DNA from: Actinomadura bangladeshensis
Lineage (GTDB): Bacteria; Actinomycetota; Actinomycetes; Streptosporangiales; Streptosporangiaceae
DNA length: 64,000 nucleotides
Assembly (NCBI RefSeq): GCF_004348335.1
Contig: NZ_SMJW01000004.1
Coordinates: forward strand, 1-64,000
Direction: 5' to 3'
The notes below the pieces were generated by a model. It was given only the letters and a program-made list of their open reading frames with translations, was not told the DNA's origin and did no database searches. This document shows, one piece after another, positions 1-14,590 of the stretch (within the stretch, counting starts at the first letter, position 1; the number at the start of each line of letters is the position of its first letter). Made by a program: the position numbers and the translations under genes.

Positions 1-62
1 GGCGCCCACCGAGATCTACACTTATGCGATCGTCGGCAGCGTCATATGTGTATAAGAGACAG
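1..62 (+). other. Illumina Nextera i5 adapter left at contig end
   Basis: This is sequencing-library DNA, not genome. Bases 1-21 match the end of the P5 primer with one mismatch. Bases 22-29 (TTATGCGA) equal the Nextera index S522. Bases 30-43 are TCGTCGGCAGCGTC, and 44-62 match the transposon mosaic end with one mismatch (ATATG for AGATG). Genomic sequence begins at 63, a few bases before the ribosome binding site of the first gene. An open frame reads through the adapter, so an automatic caller may give that gene a false N-terminus. Confidence 0.97.
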
Positions 63-77
63 CCCCAAGGAGCCCGT

Positions 78-2477
78 ATGACCCGGGCAGCACGGCATCA
101 CATCCCCCTCCTGGCCTTACTGGTGCTCCTCGCGGGCGCCCTGACCGGTTTGACCACGGCCCGGCCGGCGCACGCCGCGGTCTCCACGTCCATCACCCTC
201 GACGGCACCCGCCCCGGCCTGGTCTTCGACGGCGTCGGCGCCATCAGCGGCGGCGGCGGGAACTCCCGGCTGCTGGTCGACTATCCCGAGCCCCAGCGCA
301 GCCGGCTCCTGGACTACCTGTTCAAACCCGGGTACGGCGCCTCGTTGCAGATCCTGAAGATCGAGGTCGGCGGGGACACCAACTCCACCGACGGCGCCGA
401 GGCCAGCCACGAGCACATCCGGGGCGCCGTGGACTGCGACCAGGGGTACGAGTGGTGGCTGGCCGCGCAGGCCAAGGCCCGCAACCCTGACATCAAGCTC
501 TACGGCCTCGCCTGGGGCGCGCCCGGCTGGATCGGCGGCGGCAACTTCTGGTCCCAGGACATGGTCGGCTACCTGATGGCATGGCTCGGCTGCGCCAAGC
601 AGCACAACCTGAACATCGACTACCTCGGCGGCTGGAACGAACGCGGCTGGAACGCCGGCTGGTACCAGAACCTCAAGTCGACGCTGGCGGCCGGCGGCTA
701 CGGGTCGATCAAGGTCGTCGCGGCCGACAGCGGCTGGGACGTCGCCGACGCCATGGCCGCCGACCCGGGCTTCAAGAACGCCGTCGACATCGTCGGCACG
801 CACTATCCGTGCGGCTACATGACCGCGTTCACCTCCTGTCCGAGCACCTCGACCGCCCAGGGCCTCGGCAAACCTCTGTGGGCCAGCGAGAACGGCTCGG
901 AGGACGCCGACGGCGGCGCCCCGGCGGTCGCGCGGGCGATCAACCGCGACTACATCGACGGGCGGATGACCTCGTACATCAACTGGCCGGTCATCGCGGC
1001 GCTGTACCCGAACCTCCACTACAACACCGCCGGCATGTCGGTCGCCCCCCAGCCGTGGTCGGGCCATTACTCCCTCGGCAAGACGACGTGGGTGACCGCG
1101 CACACCACCCAGTTCACCAAGCCCGGCTGGCGCTACATCGACTCCGGGAGCGGCTTCCTGGGCGGCAACCGGGCGAACGGCAGTTACGTGACGCTGAAGT
1201 CGACGAACGGCTCCGACTACAGCACCGTCATCGAGACGATGGACGCAACGGCGGCGCAGACCGCGACCTTCACCGTCACCGGTGGGCTGTCCACGGGCCA
1301 GGTCCACGTCTGGTCCACCAACGTGAATTCCTCCAGCCCCGGTGACCACTTCGTGCACGCCGCGGACGTCACGCCTTCGGGCGGCCGGTACTCGCTGACC
1401 CTTCAGCCCGGGACCGTCTACACCGTCACGACGACGACCGGGCAGGGCAAGGGCACCGCGACCTCTCCGCCCGCCGCCCCGATGGCCCTGCCGTACTCCG
1501 ACGACTTCGAGACCGCGGCCACCACCACGTCGCCGAAGTACTTCGCCGACATGAACGGCGCGTTCCAGAGGGTGGCCTGCGGCGGAGGCAGGTCCGGCTC
1601 CTGCGTACGGCAGATGGCGCCGACCACGCCGATCCGCTGGACGAACGAGTCCTACAGCGCGCCCTATACGATCATGGGCGACGGCTCGTGGGGCAACTAC
1701 ACGGTCAGCGCCGACGCGATGCTGGAGCAGCCCGGCAGCGTCGAAGTACTCGGCCGCGTCAACCTCCAGGCGACCAACAACAACGGCCTGAACGCCTACC
1801 ACTTCCGGGTCAGCGACACCGGCGCATGGTCCATCGTGAAGAGCGACACCTCGTGGCACTTCACGACGCTGGCCGGCGGCACCACGTCGGCGCTCGGACT
1901 GAACAGGTGGCACCGGCTGTCGCTGAAGCTCCAGGACACGACGCTGACCGCCGCCGTGGACGGCGTGACCGTCGGCAGTGCCACCGACGCCTCCTACACC
2001 AGCGGTCAGGCCGGCCTGGGCGTCACCGGCTACCAGACCGACCAGTTCGACGACTTCGCCCTCACGCCGGGCAGCGCGCCGCAGCAGCACATCGGCCCGG
2101 TGAGGTCCGGTCTGGCCGGCAAGTGCCTGGACGACAACGCGGGCTCGACGGCCAACGGCACCCGCGTCCAGCTCTGGGACTGCAACGGCGGCTCCGCCCA
2201 AGTGTGGTGGTGGGGCAACGGCATGCTGCGCCTCGGCGCCTCGGACGGCAAGTGCGTGGACGTCACCGGCCAAGGCACGTCCAACGGAACGCTGGTCGAG
2301 CTGTGGGACTGCAACGGCGGAACCAACCAGCTGTGGACCCCGCAGCCGGACGGCTCGTTGAAGGGCGTGCAGTCCGGCCGCTGCCTCGACGTGCCCGGCT
2401 CCAACACGACGAACGGCACTCAGCTGGCGATCTGGGACTGCAACGGCGGAAGCAACCAGAAATGGACGCTGCCCTGA
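78..2477 (+). CDS. Secreted GH59 galactosylceramidase-like beta-galactosidase with ricin-type lectin domain
   Basis: Predicted extracellular beta-galactosidase of family GH59, acting on galactolipid or galactan-type substrates. ATG 78 is chosen because AAGGAG (67-72) precedes it and a Sec signal peptide follows (residues 1-33, AHA-A). The body aligns by eye with mammalian GALC: FDGVGAISGGGG at 50-61, GGDTNSTDG, GYEWWL, acid/base Glu188 in WNERGW and nucleophile Glu271 in WASEN. A GALC-like beta-sandwich and laminin-G-like part runs to about residue 660. A beta-trefoil lectin (about 672-799) follows, with three CLD...QxW repeats (QVW, QLW, QKW). Length is 799 aa; the lectin is extra relative to GALC. 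Any promoter lies beyond the contig edge. Substrate is inferred from the family only. Confidence 0.93.
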   Translation: MTRAARHHIPLLALLVLLAGALTGLTTARPAHAAVSTSITLDGTRPGLVFDGVGAISGGGGNSRLLVDYPEPQRSRLLDYLFKPGYGASLQILKIEVGGDTNSTDGAEASHEHIRGAVDCDQGYEWWLAAQAKARNPDIKLYGLAWGAPGWIGGGNFWSQDMVGYLMAWLGCAKQHNLNIDYLGGWNERGWNAGWYQNLKSTLAAGGYGSIKVVAADSGWDVADAMAADPGFKNAVDIVGTHYPCGYMTAFTSCPSTSTAQGLGKPLWASENGSEDADGGAPAVARAINRDYIDGRMTSYINWPVIAALYPNLHYNTAGMSVAPQPWSGHYSLGKTTWVTAHTTQFTKPGWRYIDSGSGFLGGNRANGSYVTLKSTNGSDYSTVIETMDATAAQTATFTVTGGLSTGQVHVWSTNVNSSSPGDHFVHAADVTPSGGRYSLTLQPGTVYTVTTTTGQGKGTATSPPAAPMALPYSDDFETAATTTSPKYFADMNGAFQRVACGGGRSGSCVRQMAPTTPIRWTNESYSAPYTIMGDGSWGNYTVSADAMLEQPGSVEVLGRVNLQATNNNGLNAYHFRVSDTGAWSIVKSDTSWHFTTLAGGTTSALGLNRWHRLSLKLQDTTLTAAVDGVTVGSATDASYTSGQAGLGVTGYQTDQFDDFALTPGSAPQQHIGPVRSGLAGKCLDDNAGSTANGTRVQLWDCNGGSAQVWWWGNGMLRLGASDGKCVDVTGQGTSNGTLVELWDCNGGTNQLWTPQPDGSLKGVQSGRCLDVPGSNTTNGTQLAIWDCNGGSNQKWTLP

Positions 2478-2539
2478 CGGCCCTCAGACCCAGGTGTGCG
2501 GCTTCGGGGCCGACCACCTCGAGCTGAGGTGACCGACAA

Positions 2540-2586
2540 GAGTTGAGGGCCGGGTACCGCGAACGCGGGTGCCCGGCCCTCAACTC
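2540..2586. terminator. Strong hairpin between convergent GH59 and GH54 genes
   Basis: The arms at 2540-2554 and 2572-2586 pair perfectly over 15 bp, and the stem continues inward with a bulge around a GAAC loop. There is no T-tract, which is usual for actinobacterial bidirectional terminators. It lies 63 bases after the GH59 stop and upstream of the GH54 stop, so it can serve both convergent genes. Confidence 0.75.
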
Positions 2587-2757
2587 GCGGACCTGCCGTG
2601 CGCCGCCGGCGCCCGAGCCTCCGTCCTACCGCTCCCCGTTCGACCCGCGGAACCCGAGGCCCCGGCAAAGGCCTGCCCGCTGCGCCGGACCGGCGGGCGG
2701 ACGCGCCGGAGGCCGGGCGCCCGCCCGCCGGGAGAGACGTGAGACGTCCAGGCGGGA

Positions 2758-4305
2758 TCAGCGTGGGATGAAGTCCTGGTTGGTACCTGGAGCGTTCTTG
2801 CACGGCCACTGGTCGAGCTGCTGGCCGGGGTTGTCGCCCGCACCATAAACGTCCAGGCACAAACCGCTGTTCTGATTCTGGAACTCAAAGGAACCGTCGG
2901 ATTGCCGAATCGGCCGCCACAACGTACTGGGCGCACCCGTTCGGGATTGCTGAACGATGTCAGGCACACCGGCCGACGTGGACCCACCGGCCACCCCGAG
3001 CACCTGACCGGAGTTCTGAGCCTGCAACTCACCATAGCCATTGGAACCCGGCAGGAACTGGAACTGCTGGTTGCTCTGCCCGTTGCAGCTCCACTGGACG
3101 ATCGCCGCACCCGACGCGCCGGTATTACCGTATACGTCCACGCACAGCCCATTATTGCCGATGACCAACTGATGATAACCAGTCGGGAAGGCACCGCCGT
3201 TACCCGTGCTTCCGTAACCGGCGGCCACCAGATTGGCCTGGACGGCATTCTCGGTCGCATCCGACGGGTAACCGGAGACCATGGCTCCTTCGTAGAAGGT
3301 TCCAGCGCTGAGGTTGGCGCCTCCGCCGGGCTTGCAGCAGTCGCCGCCGCTCCCCAGGACGATGGCTCCCTGCTTCTTCATGGGGCTGTACCCGCTGGGG
3401 AGCGAGCCGTCCCACAACGTGGTCAGACCGCCGGACTGGGCGTCGCCGCCTTTCAGCGCGAACCGCGATGTCCCGTTGTTCTTCAACATCGCGGTGACGA
3501 ACCTGTTGGTGAAGGCCCGCTGGTTGGGATTCCAGGTCTTACTGCCTCCGGGGAATAGACCCCATTCGAGATCCGCCTGCACCCAGGGACCGGATCCGGA
3601 GCACCCGCCGAACCAGCATGACGTGCTGAAATTGATCGAATCCATCGCACCGGGACCGTCGGCGTTCCTCGTCGTCTCGCTGTTTCCGTAGTCGAAGCAG
3701 CAACCACCGTTGACGTGCGTGCCGCTCGTCACCATGTACATGCCCTCGGGGGCACTGCCGGTCGGCACCCCCGTCAGATGGCCGTCCCGCCAATAGCTGT
3801 TGCCGGGATTGATGTACAGCGAGTAGGCCTTACTGCCCCCGACCGTCAGCGACTCGGAAGCCGCCTTGGCGGGGCTGCTCTGGCTCGAACCGGGAACCGC
3901 GTTCGAGCCCTGGTACCACAGGTCGTTGCCGTGCCCCGACTGGTCATAGACGACCGTGATCACGCACGTGGTCCCGGCGCAGAATGAGTCCTGCGCCGCC
4001 GCGTCGGCGACGCCGCCCGGACTCTGCAGGCCGATGTTCCGGGTGGCGTTATCCGATGAACGCCTCACCTGGTACAGGTTGCCGTCGTACGAGCCGTACA
4101 GCGCTCGCACCGTGCTGTGCGCGGCGACGCAGGGCGTGCCGCCCGAGGTGTAGATGTCACACGGACCCGTGACGGCCGCCGACGCCGACCACGCTGCCGC
4201 CATGGTCGCGAGCAGTGCGGCTAGCACCACCACAACCGCGGCGACGGCGGCCCGCGAGCGCCCACCGCCCGCACGGCCCGGCAAGAACACTGAGGAAGGA
4301 CGCAC
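2758..4305 (-). CDS. Secreted GH54 alpha-L-arabinofuranosidase with ricin-type lectin (CBM13-like) tail
   Basis: Predicted extracellular enzyme removing arabinose side chains from arabinoxylan or arabinan. GTG 4305 is chosen because AAGGAG lies 8 bases before it; an ATG at 4347 is in frame but has no ribosome site. The signal peptide spans residues 1-44. The GH54 domain (about 47-350) matches the Aspergillus AbfB pattern: vicinal cysteines 202-203 in GGCCFDYGN, nucleophile Glu247 in ADLEWG and acid/base Asp322 in GSGGD. The C-terminal 130 residues form a ricin-type lectin with three degenerate QxW repeats, not the CBM42 of fungal enzymes. Length is 515 aa. Paralogous to the gene at 33309-34766. 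Confidence 0.93.
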   Translation of the reverse strand: MRPSSVFLPGRAGGGRSRAAVAAVVVVLAALLATMAAAWSASAAVTGPCDIYTSGGTPCVAAHSTVRALYGSYDGNLYQVRRSSDNATRNIGLQSPGGVADAAAQDSFCAGTTCVITVVYDQSGHGNDLWYQGSNAVPGSSQSSPAKAASESLTVGGSKAYSLYINPGNSYWRDGHLTGVPTGSAPEGMYMVTSGTHVNGGCCFDYGNSETTRNADGPGAMDSINFSTSCWFGGCSGSGPWVQADLEWGLFPGGSKTWNPNQRAFTNRFVTAMLKNNGTSRFALKGGDAQSGGLTTLWDGSLPSGYSPMKKQGAIVLGSGGDCCKPGGGANLSAGTFYEGAMVSGYPSDATENAVQANLVAAGYGSTGNGGAFPTGYHQLVIGNNGLCVDVYGNTGASGAAIVQWSCNGQSNQQFQFLPGSNGYGELQAQNSGQVLGVAGGSTSAGVPDIVQQSRTGAPSTLWRPIRQSDGSFEFQNQNSGLCLDVYGAGDNPGQQLDQWPCKNAPGTNQDFIPR

Positions 4306-4427
4306 AGTTCTGACTCCTTGAGTAGGACATGGCGGAAACCACCCCATCCGGGCCGTGCCCGGGGGCCCTCCGATGGCCGGTGCCGAAGGGATCCGGCGGG
4401 GACGAAGTCCTGGTTCCGGGCGGCCTC

Positions 4428-4565: not shown

Positions 4566-4655
4566 ATGGCACTTTTCATCGTTTTCACGCCGATCATCGC
4601 CCGGGAGGCAGGACACGAGATCTTGGTGCTACGTCAGCAGTTCGCCGTGCACCCG
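4566..4655 (+). pseudogene. N-terminal scrap of an IS transposase
   Basis: The plus strand encodes a short hydrophobic start followed by HEILVLRQQFAV, which resembles the N-terminal DAEILVLRHQLAVL signature of IS481/IS3-type integrase-fold transposases. The match stops after about 30 residues. It shares a 14-base inverted match (4617-4630 against 4774-4787) with the opposite-strand remnant just downstream, suggesting two related element ends joined head to head. Confidence 0.4.
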
Positions 4656-4850
4656 CCGGTAGCCCCAGCCTGGGTTCTCCCGCAGCAGCGCCGCGAGCAG
4701 CGCTCGGTCCGGGCCGGCGAACCGCACCCTCGGCCCGTCCAACTGGCGCTCCAGCACCGTGATCTGATGCCGCAGCACCAAGATCTCGGCGTCCTTCTCC
4801 CAGTCGGTCATCGGAAGTGGCGCGTCCCGAGAGCGGGCATCCCGCACCAT
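4629..4850 (-). pseudogene. Internally deleted IS transposase remnant
   Basis: The 73-residue minus-strand reading begins with KDAEILVLRHQITVLERQ, the N-terminal signature of integrase-fold transposases. It then jumps from ALLAALL directly to RENPGWGYRRVHGELL, a motif normally about 80 residues further on. It ends before the DDE catalytic core, so this is a decayed insertion sequence with an internal deletion. No flanking terminal repeats were found. The surrounding 4306-5080 stretch holds only this remnant, the 4428 palindrome and the MarR box at 4911. Confidence 0.65.
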
Positions 4851-4910
4851 CTCGGGGTCATGCGCCTGCGGACAACTGGCGTCCCACAGGACGGCCCCAC
4901 TAGGAATAAG

Positions 4911-4925
4911 TGTCTGCGCAGGCAG
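4911..4925. promoter_or_regulatory. MarR operator copy upstream of enoyl-CoA hydratase-like gene
   Basis: TGTCTGCGCAGGCAG is identical to the two boxes flanking the divergent MarR promoter at 6646-6660 and 6678-6692 (the latter inverted). Each is a near-perfect 14-bp palindrome, the size bound by a MarR dimer. It lies 155 bases before the ATG at 5081, which places that gene in the MarR regulon. Confidence 0.75.
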
Positions 4926-5080
4926 GTTGTTTAGGTCACTTCAGCAACGAGGAAGGGCGATCCCCATGGTCTCCTCGCTCATCCCGGCGCAGGCGGCATG
5001 GTGGCGCCCGCCCGGGAGCCCGGTCGCCACCGCGACCGCGAGGGCCCAGCGCCCGCAACACTGTGAAAGGGACGAACGAC

Positions 5081-5962
5081 ATGACCGACAGCACCCTGCC
5101 CGAGCCGGTGAAGCTCGGTGACCGCGTGACCTACGACGTGCCCGCCGAGCGTGTCGCCCGCGCGACGCTCACCCGGTCCGAGACCGGGAATCTGCAGGAC
5201 GTCCACCTGCTCTACCAGCTCGACGCCGCCTACCGGCGCGCCGCGGCCGACGACTCGATCTCCGTGTTCGTCCTCGCCGCGGACGGCCGGGACTTCTCGA
5301 TCGGGCACGACGTCGATGGGCTCTTCAGCACCGACGGCATGGACCAGGTGACGCTGGAGGGCGGACTGGGGCTCGGCGGCGTCGAGGGCGATATGGCCTG
5401 GGAGAACGAGGTCTTCCTGCAACTGCACTGGCGCTGGCGCAACTTCCCCAAGCCGAGCATCGCCGCGGTCCAGGGGCGCGTGTTCGCCGGCGGCTTGATG
5501 ATCATGTGGCCCACCGACCTGATCGTGGCCAGTGAGGACGCGCGCTTCGCCGACCCGGTCACGGCGTTCGGGATGAGCGCTGTCGAGCTGTTCATGCATC
5601 CGTGGGAGTTCGGTGCGCGCCGCGCGAAGGAACTGCTGCTCACGGGCGACATCCTGACGGCGGCGGAGGCCAAGGAGATCGGCATGGTCAGCCGGGTCGT
5701 CCCCCGAGCCGACCTGGAGTCGGCCACGCTGGCCCTCGCCGAGCGGATCGCGACCCGCCCCACCGCCGGGCTGAAGATGGCCAAGAGGGCCGTGAATCAG
5801 ACCCTGGAGATCCAGGGCCAGTGGAACGCGCTGCAGGCGGCCTTCAGCCTCCACACCCTCGGCCACGCCAACAACAGGATCGTGAACAACGGCTCCTATA
5901 TCGACCCCGCGGGCTTTCCGCTGGTCTCTGACATCTGGGAACTGCCGCAGACGGATTCCTGA
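5081..5962 (+). CDS. Enoyl-CoA hydratase/isomerase (crotonase) family protein
   Basis: A 293-aa crotonase-fold enzyme, expected to act on an acyl-CoA thioester in the cytosol. ATG 5081 is preceded by GAAAGG. The N-terminal 30 residues extend beyond the usual family start. Oxyanion-hole segments are visible as LAADGRDFSIGHDVDGL and GRVFAGGLMIMWPTDLIVASEDARF, followed by the C-terminal helical trimerisation region. The standard hydratase glutamate pair is not obvious, so isomerase, hydrolase or lyase activity is equally possible. A MarR box at 4911-4925 links it to the monooxygenase operon on the far side of the marR gene. Substrate unknown. Confidence 0.85.
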   Translation: MTDSTLPEPVKLGDRVTYDVPAERVARATLTRSETGNLQDVHLLYQLDAAYRRAAADDSISVFVLAADGRDFSIGHDVDGLFSTDGMDQVTLEGGLGLGGVEGDMAWENEVFLQLHWRWRNFPKPSIAAVQGRVFAGGLMIMWPTDLIVASEDARFADPVTAFGMSAVELFMHPWEFGARRAKELLLTGDILTAAEAKEIGMVSRVVPRADLESATLALAERIATRPTAGLKMAKRAVNQTLEIQGQWNALQAAFSLHTLGHANNRIVNNGSYIDPAGFPLVSDIWELPQTDS

Positions 5963-6006
5963 GCACTGTCCCCACCGTCAGTGCGGTGATTGACCGCCCG
6001 ACCAGT

Positions 6007-6091
6007 CAAGGTGCCGGCGTGCCGGAACACGTAGTGGTGGCTCAGGTTCTCAACGGAGTCGTCGCCGCCACGCCGGGACGCCGGCACCTTG
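6007..6091. repeat. Spaced 14-bp inverted repeat between convergent genes
   Basis: CAAGGTGCCGGCGT at 6007-6020 is repeated as its exact complement at 6078-6091, with 57 bases between. The pair sits in the short gap between the crotonase gene and marR, which converge. It could fold as a long-loop hairpin acting as a shared terminator, or be the ends of a tiny non-coding insertion. No coding content was seen between the arms. Confidence 0.55.
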
Positions 6092-6136
6092 GGCCCCACA
6101 TCGGCGAACAACGCGGTTCGCCTGAGGCCGGTGCGG

Positions 6137-6601
6137 TCACCGCGGGCCGGCGCCCTCGTCGCTCTCCGGCCCGAGGCGTGACCAGATCCGGGTGAGGGCG
6201 TGCAGGTCGTCGTCGTCGAGGCGGTCGAGGAAGAGTCGGCGCACGTCGGCGTGCTGCTGCTTCCATGCCTTGCGCAGGAGGTTGCGCCCATCGGGTGTCA
6301 GGACGGCGACGTAGCCGCGTCCGTCCGCGGCCGCACGCTGACGCTCGATGAGCCCGCGGCGCTCCAGCCGGTCGGCGAGCCGGGTGAAACCACCGGTCGA
6401 CATCAGCCGCTCCCTGGCCAGCTCGGACATCCGCATGCCGGAGCGACCGGCTCGACCGAGCAGGGACAGGACGCTGTACTCGGCCATGCTCACGCCCAGC
6501 GGCGCGATCCCCGCCTCGATCTCACGCCAGATGCGGTCGTGGGCATAGAGGAAGCCCTGCCAGGCCTCGTTCTCAAGGTCGCTCAGACGTGGAGTCGCCA
6601 C
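6137..6601 (-). CDS. MarR-family transcriptional regulator
   Basis: A 154-aa dimeric winged-helix regulator. The HTH core reads YSVLSLLGRAGRSGMRMSELARERLMSTGGFTRLADRLERRGLIERQ, followed by the beta-wing DGRGYVAVLTPDGRNLL. It is transcribed divergently from the monooxygenase operon. The intergenic gap carries two inverted copies of its probable operator, and a third copy lies upstream of the crotonase gene. The likely mode is repression relieved by a small aromatic or electrophilic ligand, as is typical of the family; the ligand itself is not known. Confidence 0.93.
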   Translation of the reverse strand: MATPRLSDLENEAWQGFLYAHDRIWREIEAGIAPLGVSMAEYSVLSLLGRAGRSGMRMSELARERLMSTGGFTRLADRLERRGLIERQRAAADGRGYVAVLTPDGRNLLRKAWKQQHADVRRLFLDRLDDDDLHALTRIWSRLGPESDEGAGPR

Positions 6602-6645
6602 GTCCGAAGTGTACCGCGAGGGCCGTCCTCATCGCCGGGCGTACA

Positions 6646-6692
6646 TGTCTGCGCAGGCAGTACATCGGCTGGAATATCTGCCTGCGCAGACA
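6646..6692. promoter_or_regulatory. Paired MarR operators with embedded promoter
   Basis: TGTCTGCGCAGGCAG (6646-6660) and its exact complement CTGCCTGCGCAGACA (6678-6692) face each other with centres about 32 bp, or three helical turns, apart. TATGAT at 6699-6704 is a good -10 for the plus-strand operon, and the second box fills the -35/-10 spacer region. Binding there would block the operon, and the first box is placed to repress marR itself. Confidence 0.8.
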
Positions 6693-6749
6693 TCTTGTTA
6701 TGATCGGGACACCGAACGGCGTCCACACATAGACCGTGAGGAGAGCACG

Positions 6750-7838
6750 TTGCCCACCACCGTCACCGGCGAACGATCCCCCTTCGAGATCGGCTTCATG
6801 ACGTTCGCCGAGATCACCGCCGACCCGGATACCGGCACGCTCCCCTCCGCGCACCAGCGCGCCCGGGAGACCATCGAGCAGGCGCGGCTGGCCGACGAGG
6901 TCGGGCTCGACCTGTTCGCCGTCGGCGAGCACCACCGCACCGACTTCGTCGGCTCGGCCCCCGCCGTCGTCCTGGCCGCGGCCGCCCAGGCCACCACGAA
7001 CATCAGGCTGACCAGCGCGGTCACCGTGCTCAGCTCCGACGACCCGGTGCGCGTCTGGGAACAGTTCGCCACACTCGACCAGTTCTCCGGAGGCCGGGCC
7101 GAGATCATCGCCGGCCGCGGCTCCTACACCGAGTCCTTCCCCCTCTTCGGCTACGACCTGGCCGACTACGCCGACCTGTACCGCGAGAAGCTCGACCTGC
7201 TACTGCGGATCCGCGCGCAGAACCCGATCACCTGGAGCGGACGGTTCCGCCCCGCACTGGACGCCGCCGACGTCGGTCCCCGCGCGATGCAGGAGGAACT
7301 GCCGATCTGGGTCGGCGTCGGAGGAACCCCCGCCTCCGCCATCAGCACCGGCCGACTCGGCCTCCCCATGGCCATGGCGCTGCTGCTCGGGCCGATCACA
7401 TCTCACCGGCAGACCATCGACCTGTACCGAGAAGCCGCACGGCAGGCCGGGCACGACCCCGCCACGCTGCGCACCAGCATCAACCTCCACGGCTACGTCG
7501 GGCGTACGAGCCAGGGCGCCCGCGACACGATGTACCCCTACTTCGCGCAGGGCATGATGGCCAACAACCACCAGCGTGGCCGCGGGTTCGCGATGCCGCG
7601 GGCCGCCTTCGAGGCCCAGACCTCCCCCAACGCCGGACTCGTCGTCGGCAGCCCGCAGGAGGTCATCGAGAAGCTGCTGGCCTACCACGAGCTCTACGGC
7701 CTGGACCGCGCACTGATCCAGATCGGCTTCGGCGGGATGCCGCAGAAGGACGTCCTCGAGGCGATCGAACTGCTCGGCACCGAGGTCGCCCCCGTCGTAC
7801 GCCGCGAGGTCGGCTCCCGGAAGGAGCGGGCGGCGTGA
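6750..7838 (+). CDS. Luciferase-like FMNH2-dependent monooxygenase
   Basis: A 362-aa LLM-class flavin monooxygenase, using FMNH2 and O2 to oxidise an unknown small molecule. TTG 6750 is chosen because GAGGAG lies 7 bases upstream and upstream in-frame codons run through the operator region. Family landmarks: DEVGLDLFAVGEHHRTDFVGSAP, TSAVTVLSSDDPVRVWEQFATLDQFSGGRAEIIAGRGSY-type core, and the C-terminal LVVGSPQEVIEKLL. It overlaps the next gene by 4 bases, and that gene supplies the flavin reductase. The pair resembles the co-occurring CE1758/CE1759-type monooxygenase and reductase. Controlled by the MarR boxes upstream. Confidence 0.92.
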   Translation: MPTTVTGERSPFEIGFMTFAEITADPDTGTLPSAHQRARETIEQARLADEVGLDLFAVGEHHRTDFVGSAPAVVLAAAAQATTNIRLTSAVTVLSSDDPVRVWEQFATLDQFSGGRAEIIAGRGSYTESFPLFGYDLADYADLYREKLDLLLRIRAQNPITWSGRFRPALDAADVGPRAMQEELPIWVGVGGTPASAISTGRLGLPMAMALLLGPITSHRQTIDLYREAARQAGHDPATLRTSINLHGYVGRTSQGARDTMYPYFAQGMMANNHQRGRGFAMPRAAFEAQTSPNAGLVVGSPQEVIEKLLAYHELYGLDRALIQIGFGGMPQKDVLEAIELLGTEVAPVVRREVGSRKERAA

Positions 7839-8482
7839 CCACCACCGTGAGCGACCAGCGGGCTCTCACCGGCGGCCGCACCGGCCGTCCCCCCTCCCGG
7901 GAGGAGGCTCGGACACTGCGGGTGGTGGTCGTCAACGGCAGCCCGAGCGAGAAGTCCAAGACCGTCGGACTGGTCGGCGTCGTGCTGCGAACACTCACCG
8001 GCGTGCTCGCCGCCCACGACGTCGCGGTCGAGCACACCCGGATCGACGTGTACCGGCTCGGCCCCGCCTTCACCGGAGCCTTCGAGAGGGAGGGCATCGC
8101 CCCTGAGATCGAGGACGCGCTCCGCCGCGCCGAGGAAGCCGACCTGCTCATAGCCGCCACCCCGGTGTTCCGCGGTTCCTATACCGGCCTGTTCAAGCAC
8201 TTCTTCGACCTGGTCGACCAGTACGCACTCGCGAACAAGCCGGTCTTCCTCGCCGCCACCGGCGGCGGGGATCACCACGCGCTGGTCCTGGAACACGCCC
8301 TTCGCCCGTTGTTCGGGTTCTTCCAATCGATGACCCTGCCGGTCGCCGTCTTCGCATCCTCCGGCGACTTCGACGGCACCACGCTCCTCACCCCGCGCGT
8401 CTACGGCCGCATCGAGATGGCCGTCGAGGACGTGAGCGACATCCTCACGCTCGTGGCGACTCGCGGGAGGCCCGCTGACTGA
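7835..8482 (+). CDS. NAD(P)H-dependent FMN reductase partner of the monooxygenase
   Basis: A 215-aa flavodoxin-fold reductase supplying FMNH2 to the luciferase-like enzyme. GTG 7835 overlaps the upstream stop (GTGA), indicating translational coupling. A 25-residue leader precedes the core LRVVVVNGSPSEKSKT, the FMN phosphate-binding loop. ATPVFRGSYTGLFKHFFDLVD is the typical SsuE/MsuE active-site stretch, and AATGGGDHHALVLEHALRPLFGFF completes the family signature. Its dedicated pairing with an LLM enzyme is conserved in other actinobacteria from family knowledge. Confidence 0.92.
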   Translation: MTTTVSDQRALTGGRTGRPPSREEARTLRVVVVNGSPSEKSKTVGLVGVVLRTLTGVLAAHDVAVEHTRIDVYRLGPAFTGAFEREGIAPEIEDALRRAEEADLLIAATPVFRGSYTGLFKHFFDLVDQYALANKPVFLAATGGGDHHALVLEHALRPLFGFFQSMTLPVAVFASSGDFDGTTLLTPRVYGRIEMAVEDVSDILTLVATRGRPAD

Positions 8483-8531
8483 CACCAGCCGCGTCACGGT
8501 GACCACAAAGGAAACAAGCAAGGAGAAAGTC

Positions 8532-9164
8532 ATGCCGCACACACCACTTACCGCCGACAACAGCGCGGTCGTCCTCATCGATCACGAGGTCGGTTTCTCG
8601 AACCTCATCGGATCGCACACGATCGAAGAGAACCTCAACGGCACGCTCGCGCTGGCCAAGACCGCGAAGCTGTTCAACCTGCCGCTGATCGTCACCGCCG
8701 CTCCCGAGGACTTTGCCGCGGGTCCTCTCTACCCCGAACTCGCCCAGGTCCTCGGCGACACTCCCGTCATCCACCGTCCGCCGGTCTTCGACGCTTTCGA
8801 TAACGACCAGTTCGCCGCGGCCGTCGAGGCCGCAGGACGCAAAAAGCTGATCATGGCGGGCATCCAGACCGACGTCTGCCTCGCCCTGACCGCCTTGACC
8901 GCTCTCGACCGCGGCTACGAGGTCTACATCGTCGTCGACGCCTCTGCGGCGACCACCAAGGAGACACACGACACGGCGGTCATGCGCCTCGTCCAGGCCG
9001 GCGCGATCCCCGTCAACTGGCTTGCCGTCGGCTCGGAGATCCTTCGCGGTTGGGTCGACCAGCCGCTCGCACCGGCCTACGGTGAGCTTCTCTACGAGCA
9101 CCTGCCGTCCTGGCGGCACAACCACGTGGCGAGCGACGCCATCGCGAAGTACGCCACCAAGTAG
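8532..9164 (+). CDS. YcaC-like isochorismatase-family cysteine hydrolase
   Basis: A 210-aa cysteine hydrolase of the isochorismatase superfamily, closest by eye to E. coli YcaC (LLVDHQAG..., VCVAFPAL...). ATG 8532 follows AGGAG at 8521-8525; earlier in-frame codons lack a ribosome site. The family Asp lies in VLIDHEVGF and the nucleophile Cys in GIQTDVCLALTAL. The catalytic Lys seen in true isochorismatases is not evident around HRPPVFDAFDN, as in the YcaC subgroup. Third gene of the MarR-controlled operon. It may hydrolyse the product of the monooxygenase step; its substrate is unknown. Confidence 0.88.
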   Translation: MPHTPLTADNSAVVLIDHEVGFSNLIGSHTIEENLNGTLALAKTAKLFNLPLIVTAAPEDFAAGPLYPELAQVLGDTPVIHRPPVFDAFDNDQFAAAVEAAGRKKLIMAGIQTDVCLALTALTALDRGYEVYIVVDASAATTKETHDTAVMRLVQAGAIPVNWLAVGSEILRGWVDQPLAPAYGELLYEHLPSWRHNHVASDAIAKYATK

Positions 9165-9331: not shown

Positions 9332-10294
9332 TCAGGCCGGGGCGCGAGTACGGTCGCCTGCCCGCAGTAGTCCGCTGGGGAGGGAGATGTCCAGGATCTC
9401 CTGTGCTCGGTGCCCTGCCGCAAGCAACTCCTCGAGTTCGAAACCCGTCTCCAGGCCGAGATCGTGCGCCATGTAGACGAGTTCCTCGGTCGCGATGTTC
9501 CCGCTCGCACCCGGCGCGAAGGGGCATCCGCCGAGACCGCCGATCGACGAGTCGAGCCAGGTGACATCGGCCAGCAGGGCCGCGTAGGCCGACGCGAGGC
9601 CCGTGCCGCGGGTGTTGTGCAGGTGGACGCCGACGTCCACGCCGGGTGCGATGCGGCGCGCCGCCTCCACCAGCGCCGTCAGCCGGCCCGGTGTCACGGT
9701 GCCGATGGTGTCGGCCAGGCAGAGGCGGTCGGCGCCGCCGTCGATCGCGCGCGCGACGACGTCGCGTGTCCGGGCCGGCGGCGTCTCGCCGTCGAAAGGG
9801 CAGTCCCAGGCCGTCGCGACGATGACCTCGAGCACCCCGCCGGCCTGCCGGACCACGTCCGCCACCTGGGGGACGAGCCGCAGCGCCTGCTCGGTCGTGC
9901 GCCCGACGTTGGCCTTGCTGTGCCCGTCCGCCGCGGAGACGACGTAGTCGACCTCGACGATGCCGGCCGCGACGGCCCTCTCCGCTCCTCTCACACCGGC
10001 GACCAGGGCGGACCACCGGACGTCGGGCCACCGCGGCAGGGCCGCGGCCAGGTCCGCCGCGTCCGCGAGCGCGGGGACCGCGCGCGGCGAGACGAACGAC
10101 GTCGCCTCGATACGGCGGGCGCCCGCTCGGACGAGGTGCTCGATGATGTCGAGTTTGGCCTCGGTGGAGATGGGCCGTTCGTTCTGCAGCCCGTCGCGCG
10201 GGCCCACTTCGCGGATGTCGAGACGGGAGCGGGTCGCAGTCGTCATCGGCGGTGCCGCCGGTTCGCGCCCCGCGGCTTCAGATGACGCCTTCAT
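9332..10294 (-). CDS. Hydroxymethylglutaryl-CoA lyase family enzyme
   Basis: A 320-aa TIM-barrel lyase of the HMG-CoA lyase family, predicted to cleave a 3-hydroxy-3-alkylglutaryl-type CoA ester to acetyl-CoA and a keto acid. ATG 10294 is supported by GAGGAG 7 bases upstream and overlaps the preceding stop by 17 bases. Catalytic landmarks are GPRDGLQNE near residue 31, HLHNTRGTG carrying the two metal histidines, and GGLGGCPFAPGASGN with the active-site Cys. Last gene of the long minus-strand operon, directly after a CoA-transferase that could make its substrate. Whether the true substrate is HMG-CoA or a pathway-specific analogue is open. Confidence 0.9.
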   Translation of the reverse strand: MKASSEAAGREPAAPPMTTATRSRLDIREVGPRDGLQNERPISTEAKLDIIEHLVRAGARRIEATSFVSPRAVPALADAADLAAALPRWPDVRWSALVAGVRGAERAVAAGIVEVDYVVSAADGHSKANVGRTTEQALRLVPQVADVVRQAGGVLEVIVATAWDCPFDGETPPARTRDVVARAIDGGADRLCLADTIGTVTPGRLTALVEAARRIAPGVDVGVHLHNTRGTGLASAYAALLADVTWLDSSIGGLGGCPFAPGASGNIATEELVYMAHDLGLETGFELEELLAAGHRAQEILDISLPSGLLRAGDRTRAPA

Positions 10295-11534
10295 CGGCCA
10301 GCTCCTCAAGGTCGTTCGCTGTCAGCCCGAGTAGTTCGGGATACACGTCGGCGTTGTGCGCCCCCGGCACCGCGGGACCGGCCCACCGCACCGAACCGGG
10401 CGTGGCGGAGAACCGGGGGACCACTCCCGGCCCGAGCACCTCCTCGCCGAGCCGCTCGTCGAAATGCGGAGTGAGCATGCCCCGGGCCAGGAACTGGGGG
10501 TCGCTGACGACCTGGTCCACCTTGTACACGGGGCCGACGGCGACACCGCTGTCGGCCAGCACCTCCTGGATATGGCGGGCGTCGTGCCGTCCGGCCCATT
10601 CGGCGACGATGCCCTCGATGGCGTCCTGGTTGGCGGCACGGGCCTCGTGGTCGCGGTAGCGCGGGTCGGTGGCGAGCTCAGGCCGGCCCATCACCTCGCA
10701 CAGCCGCTTGAACAGGGTGTCCTGATTCGCGGCGATGACGACCCAGATCCCGTCCTTGGAGCGGAACAGGTTCGAGGGCGCGATCCCTTCCAGGCGCGTC
10801 CCGCCCGGTTCGCGGATCCTGCCGAGGCGATCGAATTCGGGGATGACCGACTCCAGCAGCGCGAGGCAGGATTCGGTGAGCGCGACGTCGACGACCTGGC
10901 CCTCGCCCGTGCGGTCTCGGTGCAGGAGTGCGGCGAGGACGCCCTGGACCGCGAACATGCCGGCGAGCGAGTCTCCGAGCGAGATGCCCATGCGCGGCGG
11001 CGCCTGCCCGGGGTATCCGTTCAGGGCCCGGAGACCGCTCATGGCCTCGGCCACGGAGGCGTAGCCGGCGCGGTGACTGTAGGGTCCGGTCTGCCCGAAG
11101 CCGGAGATCTGGCAGAGGACGATCCCCGGGTTGGCGCGCCGCATGCGCGGATAGCCGATGTTCCAGCGTTCGAGCGTGCCCGGACGGAAGTTCTCCACCA
11201 CCACGTCCGCGGTGGCGACCATGGCCAGCAGGAGCCGCTGCGCCCGCTCGGTGCGGAGGTCGAGCGTGACGCAGCGCTTGTTCCGGGCGTGCACGGTCCA
11301 CCACAGCTTGTGCCCCCGGTACGACTCCTGCCCCCAGTGGCGCAGGGGGTCCGGTCGTCCCGGGGCCTCGACCTTGATCACGTCGGCCCCGAGGTCCGCG
11401 AGCAGGCGGCCCGCGAACGGGCCGGCGACGACGGAACCGAGTTCGATGACGCGCACTCCGGCCAGCGGTCCGGACGTGCCTGGCCCGGCGGGCCGGTCTT
11501 CACCCCGGTCGTCGGGCGGAACTGTGCCGGTCAT
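10278..11534 (-). CDS. Class III (CaiB/BaiF) CoA-transferase
   Basis: A 418-aa family III CoA-transferase moving CoA between carboxylic acids. ATG 11534 has AGGAG just upstream. Family motifs: GPLAGVRVIELGSVVAGPFAGRLLADLGADVIKVE, NKRCVTLDL, and the nucleophilic Asp in RMGISLGDSLAGMFA. C-terminal helices contain GVAVGPVYKVDQVVSDPQ. It overlaps the HMG-CoA-lyase-like gene, so the pair probably activates and then cleaves a dicarboxylic hydroxyacid, as SUGCT-type CoA-transferases and HMG-CoA lyase would. Part of the GntR-controlled operon. Confidence 0.93.
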   Translation of the reverse strand: MTGTVPPDDRGEDRPAGPGTSGPLAGVRVIELGSVVAGPFAGRLLADLGADVIKVEAPGRPDPLRHWGQESYRGHKLWWTVHARNKRCVTLDLRTERAQRLLLAMVATADVVVENFRPGTLERWNIGYPRMRRANPGIVLCQISGFGQTGPYSHRAGYASVAEAMSGLRALNGYPGQAPPRMGISLGDSLAGMFAVQGVLAALLHRDRTGEGQVVDVALTESCLALLESVIPEFDRLGRIREPGGTRLEGIAPSNLFRSKDGIWVVIAANQDTLFKRLCEVMGRPELATDPRYRDHEARAANQDAIEGIVAEWAGRHDARHIQEVLADSGVAVGPVYKVDQVVSDPQFLARGMLTPHFDERLGEEVLGPGVVPRFSATPGSVRWAGPAVPGAHNADVYPELLGLTANDLEELADEGVI

Positions 11535-11562
11535 GACTCTCCTGAATAGTGGAAGCGGCTGG

Positions 11563-12516
11563 TCAGAACGGAGGCGGGGTCCACAGGCCCGGGTCGGGGT
11601 CACCGACCGCGACCGGGATGAACTCGTCGATGGGACCCGCCGTCCCCCACTGGTCGGCCTCCTCGCCGTCGCCCTCCCACCGGCAGGGCACCCAGGTGCT
11701 CTCGTCGACCTGCAGCAGCGCGGTCGTGTACTCGACCACGTTGCCGTCCGGCGATCGGAAGTAGGAGAAGGTGTTGTCGCCCGGCCCGTGCCGCCCGGGA
11801 CCCCAGAGCGCGGGGAACCCGGCCCTGGTCATGCGTCCGGTCCCCCGCATGTACTCCTCGACGCCGCGCATCTCGAACGAGACATGGTTGAGGGAGGCGT
11901 GGGCGGCGGCCGCGAACCCCAGCGTGTGGTGATCGCGCCCGCAGCGCATGAAGACCATCCGGTCCTCCACCCAGTCGGAGATCCGGAAGCCCAGATGGCG
12001 TTCGTAGAAGGCGATCGTCCGCGCCAGGTTCGCGGTGTTGAACACCACGTGGCTGAGCTTGCTCGGGATGTCCTCGCGCTCCTCGAGCACCCGCGCCTCG
12101 CGGGTCGCGACGCCGCAGGAGATCTCGATGAGGCGGCCGTCGGGGTCGAAGAACCGGAACCCGTAACCTCCGCCGGGAGCCGTCAGCGACGCCGGCGTGA
12201 GGTCGAGCCGCACTCCGGCCCGCGCGAGGGACTCGGCCAGCCGGTCGACCTCGGCGGGTGTCGGGACGGCGAGTGCCAGCAGGTCGAGGCGCCTCTGCTC
12301 GGCCGCGCGCACGCGGAGCACGAACTGCTCCTCGCTGCCGTCGGCGGAGAAGAAGGTCACCCCGGTGTCGTCCACGACGGGCCGCAGACCCCAGGTCGAG
12401 CCATAGAAGTCGACCGACCTGTGGTAGTCGGGGACGCCGATGGCGAGATATCGCGTGTGCGTGATCGGTGACACGCTGGGAGCGGACCGCTCTTCGAGAG
12501 GCAGGGGAGTGGGCAC
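11563..12516 (-). CDS. Type I extradiol (VOC-superfamily) ring-cleavage dioxygenase
   Basis: A 317-aa two-domain vicinal-oxygen-chelate dioxygenase expected to cleave a catechol- or hydroquinone-like ring using Fe(II) and O2. GTG 12516 follows GAGGAG and overlaps the upstream TAG by one base. The C-terminal half holds the metal triad: His in KLSHVVFNTAN, His in SLNHVSFEM and Glu in GNVVEYTTAL. The N-terminal half is the non-catalytic VOC repeat. It sits between an MDR oxidoreductase and a CoA-transferase, and a FAH-type hydrolase two genes upstream could process its product. Confidence 0.92.
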   Translation of the reverse strand: MPTPLPLEERSAPSVSPITHTRYLAIGVPDYHRSVDFYGSTWGLRPVVDDTGVTFFSADGSEEQFVLRVRAAEQRRLDLLALAVPTPAEVDRLAESLARAGVRLDLTPASLTAPGGGYGFRFFDPDGRLIEISCGVATREARVLEEREDIPSKLSHVVFNTANLARTIAFYERHLGFRISDWVEDRMVFMRCGRDHHTLGFAAAAHASLNHVSFEMRGVEEYMRGTGRMTRAGFPALWGPGRHGPGDNTFSYFRSPDGNVVEYTTALLQVDESTWVPCRWEGDGEEADQWGTAGPIDEFIPVAVGDPDPGLWTPPPF

Positions 12517-13601
12517 TATGACTCCTCGGTGTCGTGATCGTTCGGGTGGGAGGCGCCCGGCGGGCCGTCCTCACTCACCCGGATGAGTGTGCGGCCGATC
12601 GTCTTCCGGGCGGCGATCAGGCGGTGCACGTCCGGGAGATCGTCGAGTGTGAACTCCTCGACGAGCGGGGGCGCCGGCAACCGCCCCTGCTCGACGTGCC
12701 TCCAGACCGCGGTCACGACGTCCTGGCCGGGGATGTTCACGCCGATGATCGACTGGCGGTTGAGGTACAGCCGGCGGATGTCGACGCTGACGACTCCACC
12801 GCCGTGCGCCCCGCAGGTGACGAGGCGTCCGCCGGACGCCAGCAGCCGCAGCGTGTCCTCGAACAGCGCGGGGTTGGAGATGTTGTCCGCGACGAGGTCG
12901 ACTCCGCCCGGACCGGTGATCCTGCGTACGTCCTCGGTCCAGTCCGGCCGGGAGTAGTCGACGACCGAGTCGATGCCGAGGAGTTCCCGGAGCCGGTCGG
13001 CCTTCCACCGCGCGCCGACCGCCGCGACGACGTGCGCACCCAGCGAGCGGGCGACCTGGACGCAGGCCAGACCGAGACCGCCGGCCGCGGCCATGACCAG
13101 TACGCGGTCGCCGGGGCGGACCATCCCGTTGACGCTGATCAGGTTCCAGGCGACCGGGTAGGTGATGGCCATGGTGGACGCCTCGGCGAATCCGATGCCG
13201 TCCGGAATGGGCACCACGAGTTCTTCGGGCACCGTGACGAACTCGGCCTGGCCGCCGTCGCGCTGTATGCCGAGCACTTCGTGCCGGTCGCAGAACGGAC
13301 GTCCGCCGCGGCAGGGCCCGCACGAACCGCACGGCTGGAAGCCGCCGACGGTGACGCGGTCACCGACCCGGAACCGGGTCGCCCCGGCCCCGGTCCCGGC
13401 GACCACCCCGGCGGGGTCCTGCCCGAGGATCCTGGGCAGCTCCGTGATCGGCAGCGTGCGCGCCTGCACGTCGAAGGACGCCGTGGTGACGGTGCGGACC
13501 GCGACCAGCACCTCGCCGGGGCCAGGTGTCGGCCGCGGCCACGACCGGACGTACGACCCGTCCGGCTCGCCGCGCCTCTCCAGGACGGCCGCCCGCATCA
13601 T
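12516..13601 (-). CDS. Zinc-type MDR alcohol dehydrogenase/quinone reductase homologue
   Basis: A 361-aa medium-chain dehydrogenase/reductase using NAD(P)H. Tandem ATGs at 13601 and 13598; neither has a strong ribosome site, and the gene follows the FAH gene by 11 bases. The structural zinc lobe is present as CGSCGPCRGGRPFC. The catalytic zinc ligands are replaced: TTASFDVQAR where Cys is expected, and GQDPAG where alcohol dehydrogenases have GHE. The cofactor loop is AAAGGLGLACVQVARSLGA. This points to a reductase of enoyl or quinone substrates more than to a classical alcohol dehydrogenase. Operon member; substrate unknown. Confidence 0.87.
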   Translation of the reverse strand: MMRAAVLERRGEPDGSYVRSWPRPTPGPGEVLVAVRTVTTASFDVQARTLPITELPRILGQDPAGVVAGTGAGATRFRVGDRVTVGGFQPCGSCGPCRGGRPFCDRHEVLGIQRDGGQAEFVTVPEELVVPIPDGIGFAEASTMAITYPVAWNLISVNGMVRPGDRVLVMAAAGGLGLACVQVARSLGAHVVAAVGARWKADRLRELLGIDSVVDYSRPDWTEDVRRITGPGGVDLVADNISNPALFEDTLRLLASGGRLVTCGAHGGGVVSVDIRRLYLNRQSIIGVNIPGQDVVTAVWRHVEQGRLPAPPLVEEFTLDDLPDVHRLIAARKTIGRTLIRVSEDGPPGASHPNDHDTEES

Positions 13602-13612
13602 CGCCCGACCCG

Positions 13613-14590
13613 TCACGCCAGGCCACCCGGCACGGCGGACGCGGCGGACGCGGCGCCGTCCTGCCCGACCAGCGTCGTCTCCACCCGCCCCAGCGACTCG
13701 ACCTCGACGGCGACGTGGTCGCCGGCGGCGAGGTACTCGGGCGGACGGCGGCCATGACCGACGCCCGCCGGAGTGCCGGTGGCGATGACGTCGCCCGGCT
13801 CCAGGGTCATGATGCGGGACAGGTGCTCGATGATCTGCCAGAAGCCGAACACCATGTCGCTGGTGGAGCCGTCCTGCTTCAGGCGGCCGTTCACCCACGA
13901 CCGCACCCACAGCTTCTCCGGCGCGGCGACGAAGCGCGCCGGCGTGACGAACGGCGCCATCGGCTTGAACCCGTCGTGCGCCTTGGTCATGACCCAGTCG
14001 ATGCCGACCGCGGGTGCGTTCGGACCGCTCCAGTCCCGCGCGGACAGGTCGTTGAGCACCGCGAACCCCGCCACGTGACCGGGGGCGTCGGCGGCCTGCA
14101 CATTGCGGGCGGGGCGGCCGATGACGACGGCGACCTCGGCCTCCCAGTCGATCCGCTCGGCGATCGCGGGGACGGCGACCCGCTGGCCCGTCCCCACCAG
14201 CGTCGTGGTCGGCGGGGCCAGGAAGCTGTACGGGTAGGCGGACAGCGCGTCGAGGCTGAACCCCATCTCCCGGATGTGGTCCTTGTAGTTGGTGCCGATG
14301 CAGATGAGCTTCCGCGGGTGCGTCACCGGCGCCTGCCAGCGCAGGGACCCCTCGTCCAGCGGCCTCGCCGCCGGACCGCCCGCCAGGGCCTCGGCGATCC
14401 CGTCGAGGACGGCGTCCCAGCCGCTTTCGATCAGGTCCTGGACGGAACTCGCGGGCGGGGCCGCCGGCACCAGTTCCGCCAGGTCGTACAGCGAGCCCAG
14501 CGACTCCACGACCACCGTCCGCCCGTCACCGCGGATCGCCGTCCCGAGACGGAAGGCCGGCACATCTGAGGACTGAATGTCCGCACTCAC
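13613..14590 (-). CDS. Fumarylacetoacetate hydrolase family protein
   Basis: A 325-aa FAH-fold enzyme that hydrolyses or decarboxylates beta-diketo ring-cleavage products. GTG 14590 has GGGAG 6 bases upstream. Metal-binding and catalytic motifs are intact: CIGTNYKDH, IDWEAEVAVVIG (two acidic ligands), GFAVLNDLSARDW, KAHDGFKPMAPF and ATGTPAGVG. N-terminal about 85 residues form the usual FAH lid. Located between the importer genes and the MDR gene. Together with the VOC dioxygenase it looks like an aromatic meta-cleavage module. Confidence 0.92.
   Translation of the reverse strand: MSADIQSSDVPAFRLGTAIRGDGRTVVVESLGSLYDLAELVPAAPPASSVQDLIESGWDAVLDGIAEALAGGPAARPLDEGSLRWQAPVTHPRKLICIGTNYKDHIREMGFSLDALSAYPYSFLAPPTTTLVGTGQRVAVPAIAERIDWEAEVAVVIGRPARNVQAADAPGHVAGFAVLNDLSARDWSGPNAPAVGIDWVMTKAHDGFKPMAPFVTPARFVAAPEKLWVRSWVNGRLKQDGSTSDMVFGFWQIIEHLSRIMTLEPGDVIATGTPAGVGHGRRPPEYLAAGDHVAVEVESLGRVETTLVGQDGAASAASAVPGGLA

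Follow-up and report, generated by a model that had tools for sequence, protein, structure and literature searches.

A predicted MarR regulon joining a luciferase-like monooxygenase operon and a crotonase gene in Actinomadura bangladeshensis

Autoregulated MarR proteins with a local regulon are a well-known kind of system. In Corynebacterium glutamicum, the MarR regulator RosR, a peroxide-sensitive cysteine switch, is linked to flavin monooxygenase/reductase genes; the MarR protein described here shares this link and differs in having no cysteine. In the Streptomyces AbsC/SCO3205 group (PDB 3zmd, 3zpl), Trp18 and His120 of AbsC are reported to hold salicylate, and SCO3205 is reported to have a pair of operators upstream of its gene, one serving a divergent enzyme gene, together with a few further candidate sites and the operator consensus TTnAAnnnTCAA (PMC3737563). 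MhqR of S. aureus is described as a MarR repressor with an inverted-repeat operator, TATCTCGAA-aTCGAaATA (a 9-9 bp repeat), that is inactivated by a quinone compound without a thiol mechanism (PMC6798810), and quinone sensing without thiols is thus possible for a MarR protein (PMC6798810; PMC12893000). In B. subtilis, an MhqR operator lies before azoR2, and MhqR, YodB and CatR jointly control quinone/azo reductases (PMC6798810).

The window analysed here is a stretch of 64,000 nucleotides, positions 1 to 64,000 of contig NZ_SMJW01000004.1 of A. bangladeshensis (GCF_004348335.1). An earlier note on it had proposed that three identical 15-bp boxes define a small MarR regulon spanning the regulator's own gene. 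In a scan of the window, all three copies of the 15-mer TGTCTGCGCAGGCAG were re-found by exact match on the strands it had assigned, at 4911-4925 (+), 6646-6660 (+) and 6678-6692 (-). The features of the locus are as follows.

4903..4931, + strand: promoter-operator frame GGAATA-N2-box-N2-TTGTT directed toward the crotonase gene, the same frame as at the monooxygenase promoter
4911..4924, + strand: crotonase box, 14-bp core, exact match (15-mer 4911-4925)
5081..5962, + strand: crotonase / enoyl-CoA hydratase superfamily protein, 293 aa, PRK08290 subfamily (NCBIfam NF006140; Pfam ECH_1)
6137..6601, - strand: MarR family regulator, 154 aa, GTG start, no cysteine in the translation (Pfam MarR_2)
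6646..6659, + strand: marR-proximal box, exact match
6671..6704, + strand: promoter-like frame of the monooxygenase operon, with GGAATA, the box in the spacer, and TTGTT running into TATGAT (6699-6704); from the sequence and from base counts over 49 sites
6679..6692, - strand: monooxygenase-proximal box, exact match, kept in the marR-monooxygenase gaps of relatives
6750..7838, + strand: LLM-class (luciferase-like) flavin monooxygenase, TTG start (Pfam Bac_luciferase, 211 bits)
7835..8482, + strand: NAD(P)H-dependent FMN reductase, overlapping the monooxygenase stop (Pfam FMN_red)
8499..9164, + strand: YcaC-like isochorismatase-fold hydrolase, start perhaps at ATG 8532 (Pfam Isochorismatase)

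The marR and monooxygenase genes are divergent, with starts at 6601 (-) and 6750 (+), and the gap of 148 bp between them contains two boxes, 33 bp apart from start to start, as the note had placed them. The first box precedes the crotonase gene beyond marR, also in agreement with it, and begins 170 bp upstream of the ATG at 5081; the crotonase (+) and marR (-) genes are convergent. No box was found within 250 bp upstream of the YcaC gene of the window. Just upstream of the crotonase frame, on the minus strand at 4626-4823, lies a decayed stretch that resembles fragments of an integrase or transposase.

A genome scan for the 15-mer had been set beforehand as a check, and many unrelated copies were not found. 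The assembly (8,695,781 bases, 609 contigs, 96% complete) holds three exact copies of TGTCTGCGCAGGCAG, all at the window coordinates, indicating that the 15-mer is no dispersed repeat. Within the window, 11 matches with up to three mismatches to the 15-mer were counted against 3.2 expected, three of which are the sites matching themselves on the opposite strand with three mismatches because the box is a dyad. With one mismatch allowed, the looser core form TGYCTGYRCAGRCA matched 13 sites per strand in the genome (10 beyond the three) against 23 for the reversed-pattern control, and thus showed no excess. A dispersed repeat or mobile-element end lying near marR by chance, for which the transposase-like remnant at 4626-4823 could speak, can practically be dismissed, since the three copies in 8.7 Mb have no companions elsewhere, one-mismatch copies are not in excess and the box stands at the same place in other genera.

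In the marR-monooxygenase gaps of relatives, the conserved element proves to be a dyad of 14 bp, TGYCTGCGCAGRCA, in which some positions are degenerate; the 15th base varies. Identity over 15 bases had been read as a sign of strong selection; the dyad is indeed kept in relatives, but with the 15th base unconserved and some positions degenerate, the 15-base identity overstates the constraint. The bare core TGYCTGCGCAGRCA is not specific by itself, being present in 20 of 99 related genomes against 25 of 99 for the reversed control, so that mere presence is no evidence and position and surroundings count. In 14 of the 20 genomes the match adjoins marR or a target gene, and in the other six (G035, G048, G052, G061, G082 and G085) there is a single match without frame or adjacent homologue. 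The bare core was therefore dropped as a genome marker, and a framed pattern was built.

Position was assessed in 47 distinct MarR sequences with at least 60% identity, own included, taken from the loci examined; some are from records of close species and so count as distinct sequences, not as independent events. The box (up to two mismatches) was present within 200 bp upstream of marR in 42 of the 47, against 0 of 47 for the reversed control, and for 31 of these 42 the closest box starts at a distance of 44-49 bases from the start codon. In the remaining five, the best match within 200 bp has 4-5 mismatches and so does not count as a box, and in all five the framed site or the operon is on the same strand as marR. 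The MarR clade is present in Actinomadura, Streptomyces, Promicromonospora, Myceligenerans, Ruania and Phytoactinopolyspora, its four best named relatives being Actinomadura records with 92-97% identity. Paired boxes 33 bp apart (exact pattern) were found in 8 of 65 genus genomes, own included, with a spacing of 32 bp in G046; pairs at the 33-bp spacing also occur in Myceligenerans, Streptomyces aidingensis and G009, and many distant clade members have a single box.

In the marR-monooxygenase gaps, two bases separate GGAATA from the box, and another two separate the box from a following TTGTT or TTATT. Of 49 framed sites, 45 carry G immediately in front of the fixed pattern and 45 carry T immediately behind it; the pattern itself specifies neither base. 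The own genome contains two matches to the frame pattern, at 4904-4927 and 6672-6695, and no others. The pattern was found in 21 of 65 genomes of the genus, 32 of 341 of the family (genus included), 8 of 394 of the class (own included) and 3 of 22 of the family of G277, where no site was added to the class scan; the reversed control gave 0 in each scan, and these samples are nested or overlapping. Within the genus, the frame was present in 21 of 25 MarR-positive genomes (match at E below 1e-50) against 0 of the 40 others, one of which has a 42% relative (Fisher P 2e-13). In each of the four MarR-positive genomes that lack a framed site (G007, G009, G013 and G026), marR is preceded by a box with 1-2 mismatches. 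SigR/SigH-type promoters have the form GGAAT-N18/19-GTT; such a reading of GGAATA..TTGTT is not claimed, as the spacing to GTT here is 21.

The 49 distinct framed sites from the genus, class and family scans were classed by the gene 20-300 bp downstream, which was an LLM monooxygenase in 34, a crotonase in four, YcaC in three, an F420-type LLM protein in one, a WrbA-type quinone reductase in one and none of these in six (G172, G439, G616, G582, G274 and G027). The counts for the sites that prompted the pattern are partly circular, because it was written after viewing the monooxygenase promoters, the crotonase boxes of the window and two relatives, and the YcaC boxes of G012 and G054; the G277 crotonase, G232 WrbA and G656 YcaC sites were found solely through the pattern. 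The YcaC framed sites of G012 and G054 are on contigs other than that of marR, which points to regulation in trans. The YcaC gene of G277 has no box of its own (best 3 mismatches), nor has the monooxygenase gene of G044. In G009, G044 and Phytoactinopolyspora, a box with 0-1 mismatches precedes azoreductase-like genes, and in a Ruania genome a box with two mismatches does so; the G044, Phytoactinopolyspora and Ruania genes were identified by eye. For the G009 protein, scoring gave PRK13556 (FMN-dependent NADH-azoreductase) as the best match, at 53.5 bits where the cut-off is 188, which makes the azoreductase name a loose one. The G232 WrbA protein scores above its cut-off.

Among the six sites without an expected target, that of G582 lies just after a marR gene. 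In G172 and G439 (L184, L185), the framed sites have the core TGCTTGTRCAAGCA and adjoin distant MarR relatives of 36-39% identity, which suggests a sister clade with a related operator. In G616 (contig C55, 25357-25508; L173), two framed sites stand back to back between a monooxygenase gene and a VOC-like gene (by eye), with marR beyond; the VOC-like gene is a possible further target. The framed box of G027 (contig C1, 214424-214447; L183) is one base off the G046 crotonase box and precedes a predicted secreted protein without an NCBIfam match; an unrelated crotonase-family gene (28% identity) and another LLM-like gene (by eye) are found downstream.

The boxes could also be bound by another transcription factor encoded elsewhere, with the neighbouring MarR as a bystander. 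In its favour, the G172 and G439 framed sites, both outside the genus, have no closer MarR than these distant relatives in the 9.5-11 kb around them. Such a factor is nevertheless very unlikely, since the framed box tracks the MarR across the genus, the box recurs upstream of 42 of 47 orthologues, and the two genomes whose YcaC boxes are on other contigs (G012 and G054) contain the MarR gene as well.

Around the crotonase box, the frame reads GGAATA-AG-box-GG-TTGTT, starting at 4903. A crotonase with 97% identity was found in two other genus genomes of the 65 (G046 and G050), the next best having 54%. Both retain the box, with changes only at degenerate positions of TGYCTGYRCAGRCA, and in G050 the similarity to the window starts at the frame itself (4903); G000, G046 and G050 are close relatives at this region. 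In G277, which belongs to another family, a framed box stands before a crotonase of 78% identity that is divergent from a MarR of 76% identity, followed on the crotonase strand by the monooxygenase (84%) and then the FMN reductase, with the YcaC gene beyond marR. The FMN reductase of G277 appears as pieces of 83% and 61% in different frames and is perhaps broken. No box was found within 250 bp upstream of the G277 monooxygenase gene, which therefore probably depends on the box before the crotonase.

If the marR and monooxygenase boxes were real operators and the crotonase box a passive leftover, the crotonase would work in something else. The distance of 170 bp to the crotonase ATG, the degraded transposase-like remnant alongside on the other strand and the presence of the crotonase at 97% identity or more in only three of 65 genus genomes, own included, with the next best at 54%, fit such a history. 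This is unlikely, however, as GGAATA..TTGTT is kept in all three crotonase genomes (own, G046 and G050), and the G277 crotonase gene, which is transcribed divergently from marR, has the framed box on one side and the monooxygenase gene on the other.

The three boxes are thus very probably operators of the MarR protein encoded at 6137-6601, which would control its own gene, the monooxygenase operon and the crotonase gene. The operator reading, crotonase box included, agrees with the uniqueness of the box in the genome, its conservation upstream of 42 of 47 orthologues, the frame and its co-occurrence with the MarR (21/25 against 0/40), the recurring targets and the G277 arrangement, all of which come from comparison of sequences.

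Under the operator reading, the crotonase transcript would have a long leader of roughly 140 nt, which counts against it. Some further readings of the crotonase upstream region were dropped. A structured leader or attenuator was rejected, as folding of the 146-nt leader did not surpass that of shuffled sequence (z 0.05 in the window, -0.49 in G050 and -0.50 in G046). A short leader frame from 4966, seen by eye, was discarded because the differences among the three relatives mostly change the amino acid. Assignment of the crotonase box to a minus-strand gene was also rejected, as it is the crotonase that the outer frame faces.

In the most likely mechanism, a MarR dimer would bind each 14-bp dyad and repress the three promoters that drive marR, the monooxygenase-FMN reductase-YcaC operon and, past the marR stop, the crotonase gene. 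In the monooxygenase and crotonase promoters, the box would fill the spacer between GGAATA at the -35 position and TTGTT or TTATT at the -10 position, and binding there would be predicted to repress by directly excluding RNA polymerase. A small molecule, probably aromatic or quinone-like, would release the MarR from DNA by occupying the pocket of the dimer. This MarR as the binder, its action as repression and the class of the inducer are inferred.

The MarR domain scored above the cut-offs (PF12802, 52.5 bits against 27; PF01047, 39.7 against 24.6), and a palindromic box stands before marR and before its divergent neighbour. No cysteine is present in the window protein or in 43 of the 47 orthologues, the other four having one, which makes a thiol switch unlikely; an electrophile inducer, which had been suggested earlier together with aromatic acids, would have to act without a cysteine. 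A cysteine-free, ligand-sensing MarR repressor of a flavin-enzyme set for detoxification or catabolism is the most likely description. Since quinone reductases are among the targets in relatives, a quinone-like or aromatic inducer is the best guess, a tentative one.

The best solved relative by sequence is 3zmd, AbsC (E 1e-17). Trp14 is present in 47 of 47 orthologues and aligns with AbsC Trp18, whereas AbsC His120 aligns with Gln116, the neighbour of which is His117; at the aligned position Gln was found in 34 of 47 and His in 13. The AbsC/SCO3205 group (PMC3737563) resembles this MarR in the aligned ligand Trp and in having self and divergent-gene operators, and differs in that the His paired with the Trp aligns with Gln here, in its other targets and in its operator, the box here, TGYCTGCGCAGRCA, not conforming to TTnAAnnnTCAA. 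The likeness to MhqR of S. aureus and B. subtilis (PMC6798810) is that in relatives, although not in the window, the box stands before azoreductase-like and WrbA genes. The box does not conform to the MhqR operator, which in S. aureus is longer and has another centre than TGYCTGYRCAGRCA. MhqR targets ring-cleavage dioxygenases, none of which was identified here, apart from the one VOC-like gene (by eye) behind a G616 framed site, and the LLM monooxygenase-crotonase set is not named among the MhqR targets in the passages of PMC6798810 covered here.

Family scores were compared with the NCBIfam cut-offs. The crotonase scored above its cut-off (NF006140, the PRK08290 enoyl-CoA hydratase subfamily, 337 bits against 280), with 3t3w and 3ome, both deposited as enoyl-CoA hydratases, as its best solved relatives; the two catalytic glutamates of the classical enoyl-CoA hydratase presumably fall on Met and Val in it. 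Scores below the cut-offs were obtained for the monooxygenase (TIGR03858, LLM_2I7G, 413 bits against 462.25; closest solved structure 2i7g), the FMN reductase (TIGR03566, MsuE, 193 against 212.5) and the hydrolase (NF041461, YcaC, 176 against 310), so by these scores the three are relatives of LLM_2I7G, MsuE and YcaC and not members by the curators' rule. A pyrimidine (Rut-like) pathway, considered for the combination of LLM protein, isochorismatase-fold hydrolase and reductase, was rejected, because RutA does not appear in the list of 24 NCBIfam matches to the monooxygenase.

No description of this regulator, box and target set was found in the literature covered, most subscription papers lying outside it, and the matches listed for the box sequence look unrelated. 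What is gained is an operator sequence, a promoter frame and a short target list for one MarR clade. The shared regulator also shortens the search for substrates of the monooxygenase pair and the crotonase, as a single inducer screen with one reporter would indicate the substrate class. It is possible, though doubtful on present evidence, that Actinomycetes have an undescribed regulon, governed by a cysteine-free MarR with a distinct operator and a quinone or aryl-acid ligand, in which the FMNH2-dependent LLM monooxygenase pair, a non-standard crotonase, the YcaC-like hydrolase and azoreductase- or WrbA-type quinone reductases make up a single, so far unrecognised route of detoxification or ring degradation.

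Some observations on relatives and on the surroundings of the locus were also made. The monooxygenase gene looks broken in G029 (Actinomadura spongiicola; L020 / L026), where it appears as two short pieces on opposite strands, and in G050 (L008 / L048), where it appears as three pieces with a gap; in both genomes marR, both boxes and the neighbouring genes are still present. In the window, another CoA-linked cluster lies beside the regulon at 9332-13910 (-), convergent with the YcaC gene and without a box match of up to three mismatches inside, comprising an HMGL-like lyase, a family III CoA-transferase, a Pfam-less frame and a zinc alcohol dehydrogenase. On the other side, at 24-4347, genes encoding a glycosyl hydrolase of family 59 (galactocerebrosidase-like) and an arabinofuranosidase B were observed, each with ricin-type lectin domains.
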